Below, one piece after another: positions 3,546 to 29,343 of a stretch of DNA of 29,553 nucleotides (position 1 is the stretch's first letter; each line of letters begins with the position of its first letter). Source of the stretch: a virus; IMG/VR virus record IMGVR_UViG_3300032294_001388, positions 1-29,553 of that record; one strand, written 5' to 3'. The notes beneath the pieces are model-generated. The model searched no databases, was not told the DNA's origin, and saw nothing but the letters and a program-made list of their open reading frames with translations. The translations under genes were made by a program, and so were the position numbers.

Positions 3546-3821
3546 TTATGCTCCCATTAATAAGAAATTCATTTCAAATCCTGTATCTCCTCCTGCACCT
3601 CCAGTAGACTTAGCTACTAAGTTTGCATCTTCAATCCCATCTTTAAACCAATATTCTGCAATCCCAGTACCATCATATACACCAACAGTTTGTCCAATCT
3701 TTCTATCCTCAAGTTTTAATACATCAAGACATTGTGTAGTATTAAGATACGGGCCATACTTAGCATCAAGAAGATCATGACCCGCTACAAATAAAGGTGC
3801 TTCAACATTAACTTGTCCCAT
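3546..3821 (-). CDS. Small fibre-associated protein (91 aa)
   Basis: The product has the motif DAKYGPYLNTTQCLDVLKLE then RKIGQTVGVYDGTGIAEYWF and ends in DANLVAKSTGG. This KYGPY...R.IGxTVGV...EYWFKxGIxDxxLV pattern is a repeated module in tail-fibre and adhesin-like proteins of many Bacteroidota phages; here it is a stand-alone gene. Gaps of one base to the upstream 1061-residue gene and four bases to the downstream gene put it in the fibre operon. Probably a fibre-attachment or fibre-tip module; function inferred. Confidence 0.7.
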   Translation of the reverse strand: MGQVNVEAPLFVAGHDLLDAKYGPYLNTTQCLDVLKLEDRKIGQTVGVYDGTGIAEYWFKDGIEDANLVAKSTGGAGGDTGFEMNFLLMGA

Positions 3822-3822
3822 A

Positions 3823-6800
3823 TTATTTAAAGTAATTATCTAGTTGTTGTACAACAGCAGAACCTTCTTCTACAATATCAGTTCTATAAAATGTTAGGTG
3901 AGATAAATAATCACCTCGTTCCATACAAAATATCATTCTTTTAAATCCTGACGTAGTAGTGTTACATAATGATACTACTTGAGCTTTAGTTAAAACAATA
4001 CTATCAGGAGAACTATTTGATATATTATTAGTAATTGGTGTACCTCCAGAAGCTGTAGTTAAAGATATTGCATTTAACACTTCAGGGGAAGTAAATTTAA
4101 TTTTGCTCTCACAGTTATTCCAAGATTTTGTTTTATTTGCTCCTAGGTTAGTATAGGTAAGACTATAACCTCCATTTGGAGTTTGAGTGCTATTTAAAAT
4201 ATCTGCTACTGTACCAATTGGTACTCGAATTGTATTACTTGATGCGTTTGTATAAAAACTAAATCCTTGATGAAAATTATAATGATATACATCTTGTGTT
4301 ACCCATTGTACTGTATCATCAATTTGAGCATATAGTGAAAAATTATTAGAACAATAAAAAAATGTACCCCTTCCTTCTGCAACTGGAAAATGATAAATAG
4401 TTCCTGATAAATTTATGGTGATATTGTATAATTCTTTGTTTGCTGGGACATTAAAACTTGTACTGTTTCCTGGAGTTAAAGAAAAAAAATCGCCACTACC
4501 ATTTGTAATAATAGCCCCAGTTAAATTTAAGTCTATTGGAGAACCGTTATTCCAATCAATAATTCCAATTTTTTTAAATTCATTTCCACCAGTACTAGTT
4601 TTAAAACAATTAGATTGTACCATACTAGCAGTAGCTCTAATTTTACCTCTTTTTCTAAGTGTAATAGTATTATTTGTATTAGCAATACTATTAATAGAAG
4701 ATGGTTGACCTTTCCAATTTTGATTTAAAAATGGTAATACTATAGCAGATGTTTGACCATTTGTTAGTTCTCTTGAACCTGCTGTACTAGTAGTTAAAGT
4801 TTCACCTGTTGGTAACCTTTGTGTAGCAATAGCAGGTTGATATCCAGTTGTTCCAAAGGTAGGTGTTCCTGTTGGATTTATTGTTGCAGTAGTAGTTTCA
4901 ATAACACCAAATGGTATATCAAAAGTATATTTTTGATAAGATGGAACATAAAAATTATCTCCTGGAGATACTGTATCATGTCCAACATTATTTACTAATG
5001 AAAATGGTGTATGAGCTTGTAAATCAAAATACTTTGTAGTATAAACATTAAACTTCTCTCTAAAGTTAAATGTATTTCTAAATTGACCAGTATCAAAACT
5101 ACCACGAAATCCTACAGAATAGTTATTAACAACTGGAATATTTTGTTTGATTACATTACAAAAAATATGTTCAATGTAATAACCACTATTAATTCTATCT
5201 ATAGTAATACTACCTGTTACCGAAGATGTTGCTGTACCATTAGACACAGTACATGTAGATAAATTAGAAGAACTTCCTTTTACAATTCTAAACTCATATT
5301 TTTTAAAATAATTTCGTGATGAAATATAATTTGCTAAATTTGCTGGTGATATAGGAGAATTAGTATCATATGTAACTCCTGAAGGAGCATTTAAAATAGA
5401 AAATGTCAAACCTTCTTTTACACCTGTTGAAGAAGCTGCTCTTTTAATACCAGGTGTACCAGCATAGTTTGTATAGACACTACAACTAGTAGGCGGATTA
5501 TTTGGATAAGTACCCCCATCTCCTTGATTATATATAAGTAATCTTACAAAGTTTGCATCACCATCCCTCATTCCCCATAATTCAACACGAGGATATCTAC
5601 CAAGAAACAAATCTAATTGTGATTCTTCTGTAGGTACTACTAACAAATCTTTAACCAAATAATCTTGTGTATCTAATCCATCATCTAATTGGATACTAAA
5701 TAATATTAAGTCATTTCCAGTGGATGCACTGGTAATAGTTTTTTCACTAGTAACTAATCTTATATTAGATGAAGTTGCACCATCATGAATAGCAGTACTT
5801 AATTGTGTTCCAAATGATGTAATACTTTTAATCAATGGTTTATTACTGTATCCTGAATAAAAACTAATTGGTGGTCCTGGATACAAACCATAGTTATATA
5901 TATTATTTGATCCTTTTATAAAAACAGGAAGAATACCTACAAGCCCAACATTTTTTGTAGTATTAATTACTCCAGTAATACTGGCATTAGGAATATTTTG
6001 AGGTCCTGTTTCTAACATATATCTTAATACCAAATTTCTAGTTGAATCTGGAGATAAGATAGGATTCATCAAACCTGTTACATAACTACTTTTAGATGAT
6101 GGATTATATGTAGGAAAAAAACTAGATGTATTCTCATAAACTCTAAAATCATGTAATGAAACATCTCCTGTACCACCAGCCTCAACAAAATTATTTCTAA
6201 AATTTATTTTACCATATGATGTGACTGTAGATAGCAATTTAAAAAATATACCACTATTAGTAGAATTAGTCCAAGGAAATCCTATAGACTTTGTAAAAGT
6301 ATTAGTTGTTGTAGTATTAAATGCAATACTAGTATAAGGTTGATGTTCAATACCATTAATAAATAATCTTACATTATAGTTTAATGTATATGTTGTAGGA
6401 GCAGCAACATTGTTAGGGGTTCTTGTTACTAATACTGTTATGTTTAACCATTTATTAAAAAGGGTGTTGACATTTAAAGAAGCATTATAAATTGGAGATA
6501 CTAGTGGATAGAATAATGTAGGAGTTGTTACAGTAGTTCGAACAGAATTACTATCAACATAGTTATCAGTGGTTATAATTTCAATACGTGTTGCAGCAGG
6601 GGTTGTGCCCTTAATTATTCTTAAAGTATAATAAGGAGCATCTGTTAAAGCCCCAAATGAAAATGATGTAGTATTTACTGTAGAGTCTCTCAACATAATA
6701 GAAAAACTCAAGCACATATCAGAGTACGCAGTATGAGCGTTTGCAAATAGAGGACTACAATCTGCACCAAATTGATTAGGTACACCATTAGATCTACCAG

Positions 6801-28568: not shown

Positions 28569-28576
28569 TAAATTTG
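28569..28576 (+). promoter_or_regulatory. Rightward -7 promoter box
   Basis: TAAATTTG is an exact TAnnTTTG, 25 bases before the ATG at 28602, giving a predicted leader of about 20 bases. No TTTG -33 box is visible at the usual distance; a dyad occupies that place. Confidence 0.5.
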
Positions 28577-28601: not shown

Positions 28602-28919
28602 ATGGAGACAACAACAAACACCAATCTTGCCAAATGGAAAGAGCTCATGAAGGCAGGAGAGAGATTGGGATCACTGGGTGATCTCATGAAGAGTGGCAAT
28701 GTAACGGTCTATAAAGACCAGTTCGTAAGGTACGAAGCAGGCAGTGTGTCTGCCTGGGTTACTGTTAGTGAAACCACCAAAAAGAAGGGTATTGATCCAG
28801 TAAATCTCGAAGTTACCCTTCGGGATAAGATTACAGGAGAGCCTGGTAAGGTAGCGCAGGCTTGCGCACCTGGCGGTAAACCAGCAACTGCTGCTGACTT
28901 GGCCAAGATCTTTGGCTGA
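28602..28919 (+). CDS. First rightward gene, hypothetical (105 aa)
   Basis: I do not recognise this protein. The N-terminal 35 residues are helical (METTTNTNLAKWKELMKAGE then RLGSLGDLMKSG), followed by beta strands (VTVYKDQFVRYEAGSVSAWV, VNLEVTLRDKITG) and an Ala/Pro/Gly-rich end (KVAQACAPGGKPATAADLAK). It has fewer A/T-ending codons than the leftward genes. The reading frame is the only one supported by promoter and terminator placement; an antisense frame at 28709-28960 is a shadow. First place after the divergent promoter with its own terminator suggests an early, independently expressed gene. Confidence 0.75.
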   Translation: METTTNTNLAKWKELMKAGERLGSLGDLMKSGNVTVYKDQFVRYEAGSVSAWVTVSETTKKKGIDPVNLEVTLRDKITGEPGKVAQACAPGGKPATAADLAKIFG

Positions 28920-28924
28920 GAGTG

Positions 28925-28946
28925 AGGGGTGAAATACCCCTTTTTT
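28925..28946 (+). terminator. Intrinsic terminator after the 105-aa gene
   Basis: AGGGGT (28925-28930), loop GAAAT, ACCCCT (28936-28941) and a T run to 28946, starting five bases after the stop codon. A textbook rho-independent terminator; it makes the 28602 gene a single-gene transcript. Confidence 0.88.
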
Positions 28947-28959
28947 AACCTTTTAACCA

Positions 28960-28989
28960 CTTGAGTGTGAGGAGGTTAAAATAATTTTG
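28960..28989 (+). promoter_or_regulatory. Promoter candidate for the structured RNA and 59-aa gene
   Basis: TAATTTTG (28982-28989) is an exact TAnnTTTG box. CTTG at 28960-28963 stands 18 bases upstream as a possible -33 element. The start would be near 28993, giving a leader of about 170 bases before the ATG at 29164. The box lies within the 5' arm of the RNA stem, so the promoter and the full stem cannot both be used in one transcript. Confidence 0.45.
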
Positions 28990-29124
28990 TAAGTGAAGGG
29001 ACAGGTTTGGGTGACCACAAACCACCATTTTCCTACTGTTGTGCAGTGCATTCCACTGTTCCTCACTTATAAAATTATAGCATACACTCGTTGCAGCGAG
29101 TATAAACAGGTGATTAGGCTGCAA
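28981..29124 (+). ncRNA. Candidate structured RNA or long regulatory leader
   Basis: A long stem pairs 28981-28996 with 29063-29078 (15 Watson-Crick pairs and one G-U), then after a bulged A (28997) pairs 28998-29004 (GGGACAG) with 29056-29062 (CTGTTCC; six pairs and one G-U). Both wobbles are G-U only if the plus strand is the RNA. Inside are GTTTG/CAAAC (29005-29009, 29018-29022) and CAGTG/CACTG (29044-29048, 29054-29058), the latter competing with the main stem. Downstream, ACTCG/CGAGT (29086-29090, 29097-29101) has loop TTGCAG, which pairs with CTGCAA at 29119-29124 as an H-type pseudoknot. No tRNA or known riboswitch core was recognised. It could be a trans-acting small RNA or a leader for the 59-residue gene. 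Confidence 0.6.
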
Positions 29125-29163
29125 GCGTTCTTAACAGAGAGGTTCACATAAAAAAACACAACT

Positions 29164-29343
29164 ATGAACAATTTAATTTTAACTCAGGATCAGGAAATGA
29201 AATGTATGGCAATTGACGCTCAAGTGAGCGCAATGAACGAGGAGGAATTCCTCGCATACATTCATCAACATCCTGATGAACGATGTATCCACATTGGAAA
29301 TGGCATAATGTACGATTATGTCTGGGGTGCATACGAATTATAA
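29164..29343 (+). CDS. Small hypothetical protein (59 aa)
   Basis: The frame runs from ATG 29164 to TAA 29343. The product (MNNLILTQDQEMKCMAIDAQ then VSAMNEEEFLAYIHQHPDER and CIHIGNGIMYDYVWGAYEL) has a helical middle and a conserved-looking GIMYDYVWG end. It has no signal peptide. The upstream A-rich sequence (AAAAAAACACAACT) is a Bacteroidota-like ribosome entry region without Shine-Dalgarno. A structured leader precedes it. Function unknown. Confidence 0.7.
   Translation: MNNLILTQDQEMKCMAIDAQVSAMNEEEFLAYIHQHPDERCIHIGNGIMYDYVWGAYEL

Follow-up and report, generated by a model that had tools for sequence, protein, structure and literature searches.

The window analysed here comprises the 29,553 nucleotides of the IMG/VR record IMGVR_UViG_3300032294_001388 (29.6 kb), which is probably a fragment. 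Its terminase shares about 32% identity with those of crAss-like phages, of which this phage, judged by that protein, is a distant relative. The terminase also matches those of Bacteroides, Flavobacterium and Cellulophaga phages, so that a Bacteroidota host is likely.

Organization of the locus

The locus lies between two small genes on the plus strand (Table 1). The upstream gene has no PHROG or Pfam match, and a homologue search with it returned nothing. Its unit ends in a terminator-like hairpin (28925–28941, U run to 28946), which was absent from the list produced by a terminator consensus scan. The long stem that the earlier note had placed directly after this terminator is separated from it by 34 nt, and this gap holds the −33 box of a predicted promoter. 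Beyond the stem follow a ribozyme, a short A-rich stretch and the gene for a 59-aa protein. A short HPDER segment of this protein recurs in proteins of two close relatives, L025 and L026; since identity is 33% with large gaps, homology is likely but not strongly shown. A search with the HPDER gene itself gave no homologues. ARAGORN called no tRNA in the window, and a tRNA reading of the locus was rejected on these grounds.

Table 1. Features of the locus in window coordinates
Feature	Position	Strand	Basis
Upstream small gene, 105 aa, no family	28602..28919	+	ORF
Hairpin resembling an intrinsic terminator (AGGGGT-GAAAT-ACCCCT, then a U run) at the end of the upstream gene's unit	28925..28946	+	Sequence, fold
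−33 box TTG of predicted Bacteroidota sigma-A-type promoter	28961..28963	+	18-nt spacing to −7 box
Stem, 5′ arm (16 + bulged A28997 + 7)	28981..29004	+	Pairs read from sequence, fold, shuffles
−7 box TAATTTTG inside 5′ arm; predicted start ~28994	28982..28989	+	Spacing; box position from PMC9723704
Loop region, 51 nt, with two predicted small hairpins	29005..29055	+	Fold
Stem, 3′ arm (7 + 16)	29056..29078	+	Pairs read from sequence, fold, shuffles
Predicted pistol self-cleaving ribozyme	29086..29147	+	Rfam RF02679, 54.9 bits, E 1.4e-7
A-rich 21-nt leader remaining on the mRNA after the predicted cut	29143..29163	+	Sequence plus homology
Downstream gene, 59 aa, ATG at 29164	29164..29343	+	ORF; HPDER segment common with L025 and L026 proteins

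A predicted pistol ribozyme ahead of the 59-aa gene

The Rfam covariance model RF02679 aligns here over its full length (model positions 1–68 of 68), with a score far above the curated cut-off of 34.5 bits. The matching element begins 8 nt past the 3′ arm of the stem and had been overlooked in the earlier note, although it determines the context of the stem. P1 (29086–29089/29098–29101) and P2 (29110–29113/29144–29147) each consist of four standard pairs, the pseudoknot formed by the P1 loop (29092–29097/29118–29123) of six, and P3 (29128–29132/29137–29141) of five pairs including two G-U. The P3–P2 junction is made up of two nucleotides, G29142 and U29143. All helices, the pseudoknot, the GU junction, the phage context and the position ahead of a gene agree with the pistols of the Rfam family, and by this homology the element is almost certainly a pistol ribozyme. 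Known pistols cut at the two-nucleotide GU junction between P3 and P2 (PMC4604425), and the cut is therefore predicted between G29142 and U29143, 21 nt 5′ of the ATG of the 59-aa gene.

A cut close to a phage start codon has a counterpart in the HHphage hammerhead of haloviruses HF1 and HF2, for which the part of PMC3088659 considered here gives a distance of 13 nt and a mapped mRNA 5′ terminus no more than 3 nt away from the cut. HHphage belongs to another ribozyme class and no long hairpin is mentioned before it in that part of the paper, whereas our locus is described from its sequence alone. Theta ribozymes near phage tRNAs likewise adjoin a structured RNA in phages (PMC10879173); however, they are of the HDV-like class and their partner is a tRNA, which ARAGORN does not report in our window.

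Structure and significance of the upstream stem

The 23-pair stem with one bulged A described in the earlier note is confirmed: 28981–28996 pair with 29063–29078 in an outer helix of 16 pairs, and 28998–29004 with 29056–29062 in an inner helix of seven, leaving A28997 bulged. The distance between the arms, given before as 60 bases, is 51 nt between the inner and 66 nt between the outer arms. As stated previously, only two pairs deviate from Watson-Crick pairing, and both are G-U on the plus strand (G28989-U29070 and G29000-U29060). These pairs had been taken as a sign of selection on a plus-strand RNA. The plus-strand structure holds, but the argument from the G-U pairs is weak, because two transition mismatches would both be of the plus-strand type by chance in one case out of four.

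Comparison with shuffled sequence, which the earlier note had proposed as a check, gave a minimum free energy of −36.4 kcal/mol for the plus strand (z −4.5; 0/200 shuffles equally stable) and a much weaker signal for the minus strand (z −2.15; 9/200). A helix of 23 pairs with one interruption never arose when the local 161 nt were shuffled 1000 times, and the stem is the best helix of this kind in the real window. Since the earlier reading had scanned the whole window, the corresponding whole-window figure is also needed: a 23-pair helix appeared somewhere on one strand in 10 of 400 shuffles (2.5%), and a bare uninterrupted 16-pair helix is common by chance. Finding such a stem at this position is thus improbable, whereas finding one by scanning the entire window is only moderately improbable.

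The view that the stem matches no RNA class was borne out in Rfam, where its sole match was a chance-level miRNA (21.8 bits against a cut-off of 54). The proposal that an inner CAGTG/CACTG hairpin (CAGTG at 29044, CACTG at 29054) competes with the stem and makes it a two-state switch was rejected, as the fold in which this hairpin is forced is 3.1 kcal/mol less favourable and still contains the outer stem. We also considered that the stem might be a second terminator or an RNase III site which ends read-through RNA before the ribozyme. Its position between a terminator and a new unit would suit such a function, and 23 pairs would be a sufficient length for RNase III. However, no U run follows the 3′ arm (AGCAUACACUCG; the sequence past 29078 reads AGCATACACTCG), so that the stem is not an intrinsic terminator, and the ribozyme already supplies a cut, which makes this explanation very improbable.

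In the predicted fold (calculated without the pseudoknot), the stem coexists with the ribozyme helices. Folding of the ribozyme costs 8.7 kcal/mol with the stem and 9.2 kcal/mol without the upstream RNA, and the native upstream sequence disturbs the ribozyme less than 194 of 200 shuffles do. This milder interference does not come from the stem, since reversal of the 5′ arm leaves the cost unchanged (8.55 vs 8.67 kcal/mol), and a role of the stem as an insulator of the ribozyme was rejected for the same reason.

A predicted promoter that conflicts with the stem

The −7 box that the earlier note had seen in the 5′ arm could be located as TAATTTTG. Bacteroidota sigma-A promoters consist of a TTG near −33 and TAnnTTTG (PMC7366714), and the Flavobacterium −7 box spans −12 to −5 (PMC9723704), which places the start at about 28994 and the TTG of our locus at −33. 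The two boxes, 18 nt apart, match this consensus and spacing; the difference here is that the −7 box forms part of an inverted-repeat arm. The window contains seven loose promoter matches on both strands, three of them on the plus strand with exact spacing, and among these matches the pair described here is the one that is intergenic and beside the 59-aa gene. We therefore predict a Bacteroidota promoter that overlaps the 5′ arm. A further possible −7 box, TAAATTTG at 28569–28576, lies ahead of the gene that begins at 28602, but no TTG stands at the corresponding −33 distance.

A transcript that starts at 28994 is missing the initial 13 nt of the 5′ arm, and a leader with this start folds like its shuffles (z −0.03). 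The predicted probability of the stem, taken as that of the remaining outer 15 pairs, is 0.95 for a start at 28982, 0.63 at 28993 and 0.07 at 28994; energy models are not exact to a single nucleotide, but the direction of these values is clear. The embedded promoter and the full stem therefore do not belong to one transcript. According to these models, the full stem would form only in RNA arriving from upstream, and RNA from about 28994 would be without its outer half.

The overlap of the 5′ arm with the −7 box and start region, together with 94% complementarity of the arms across 16 nt, is also what would be expected of a DNA operator, in which the arms, about 80 bp apart, serve as half-sites for a phage or host repressor of the embedded promoter, possibly with looping. 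Such an operator seems improbable to us, as the window holds no further copy of the arm motif beyond chance, the two mismatches both read as G-U in plus-strand RNA, and folding is more favourable for the plus than for the minus strand.

Other pistols and related phages

Pattern searches yielded at least 63 distinct pistols with paired P1 and pseudoknot. Among the matches listed, 58 loci have a scorable upstream ORF, and in 39 of these the pistol starts between −12 and +15 nt from the end of that ORF, which lies on the same strand in 37 of the 39. Furthermore, at 27 of the 58 loci among the matches listed, an ATG-started ORF of at least 40 codons begins no more than 60 nt from the conserved AGCG. 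Pistols are therefore found mostly at gene junctions, and most of those among the matches listed begin about 15 nt or less from a same-strand stop codon. Our locus departs from this rule in that a 98-nt hairpin and a predicted promoter precede the pistol.

A similar arrangement was observed in another phage, L020, in which two pistols (3700–3756 and 4424–4483) flank one gene and each follows a long hairpin within about 12 nt (z −7.1 and −2.5). These hairpins have no evident sequence in common with the stem at 28981–29078, so the likeness is one of arrangement in two phages and no demonstrated family. Upstream of the hairpin and second pistol, L020 also carries a cloverleaf-like RNA (4284–4361, z −5.0) with a T-arm-like GAGGTTGGAATCCTC, which is called by neither ARAGORN nor Rfam.

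A search with PhoH identified four close relatives (L023–L026), and a TerL search was also made. The records of L023 and L024 end before the position of the stem, and L025 and L026, which both cover it, have neither stem nor pistol. No match to RF02679 was obtained in the records of 13 relatives; this search had no positive control of its own, and the same search finds pistols elsewhere. Searches through neighbour proteins, the pistol pattern and the arm pattern revealed no homologous stem with which covariation could be assessed. The arm pattern gave nine matches; on visual inspection, their similarity did not extend beyond the searched motif in any case. One of these, at L249 105–187, is itself a long inverted repeat (TTTAAGTGAGGGCT.../...AGCCCTCACTTAAA), unrelated beyond the motif and a different repeat.

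The absence of the stem from L025 and L026 also speaks for a simpler explanation, in which the outer arm is promoter DNA, its AT-rich copy about 80 nt downstream is a functionless coincidence or template-switch leftover, and the locus consists of promoter, plain leader, pistol and gene. Here an exactly spaced promoter covers the outer arm, the leader from 28994 is no more structured than its shuffles, and some whole-window shuffles hold a helix this long. On the other hand, none of the local shuffles does, the seven inner pairs lie outside the promoter sequence, and the stem directly adjoins the ribozyme, an arrangement also seen with the L020 hairpins. We consider coincidence unlikely, but it is the strongest rival to a functional hairpin.

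A model for the locus

The ribozyme is of a known kind, and the hairpin is without a known role. The reading to which we give about even odds treats the whole locus (28961–29163) as a ribozyme-processed leader in which the stem works as an RNA hairpin. Within it, processing of the leader by the ribozyme is a well-supported prediction. The match and anatomy of the ribozyme, the stem and the spacing of the promoter boxes are shown by the sequence; we infer cleavage in the cell, use of the promoter, read-through past the terminator and a role for the hairpin. The locus would supply the 59-aa gene with its promoter and leader, the pistol being the working part. Cleavage would shed the upstream part and leave an mRNA whose 5′-OH end lies 21 nt before the AUG. 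The stem is most likely an accessory hairpin that folds separately within the shed RNA and occupies the place at which an upstream gene ends in most pistol loci. In RNA entering past the terminator, stem and ribozyme would form a structured fragment of about 160 nt with a 2′,3′-cyclic phosphate end, and the most likely function of the hairpin is to seal and stabilise this fragment. Transcripts initiated at the embedded promoter would contain no more than the inner half of the stem. The folding z-score, the local shuffles and the two L020 pistols that likewise follow hairpins argue for such a hairpin. Against it, the upstream terminator limits read-through, L025 and L026 lack the stem, a helix of its length arises in some whole-window shuffles, and the stem would be missing from the main transcript if most transcription began at the embedded promoter.

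More speculatively, hairpin and pistol might be a recurring phage module for a stable small RNA whose 5′ side is capped by the hairpin and whose 3′ end arises from the ribozyme cut; this cut would also fix the 5′ end of the downstream gene's RNA. The two RNA sources would then meet different fates, because RNA from upstream carries the hairpin and promoter RNA does not. We regard this extension as a long shot. With a hairpin that overlaps the predicted promoter on one side, a small gene on the other and a predicted cut at a defined distance from the ATG, this pistol allows exact predictions of RNA ends. Moreover, the survey rule that pistols follow stop codons, together with its hairpin exceptions, makes the idea of mRNA processing testable.

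Some further structures were noticed in the relatives. On the minus strand of L025 (2800–4310), a terminator lies behind every small gene, and a similar ACCATCTT-TCTACYAATAAATA-like stretch lies ahead of it, which is perhaps a phage promoter or leader motif. L025 (~3680–3740) and L026 (~890–955), again on the minus strand, share a near-identical double hairpin that ends in GATGCATACTTGGTAACAGAAGCATC and a U run after homologous genes. In our window, a large-loop terminator after 29343 resembles this double hairpin.
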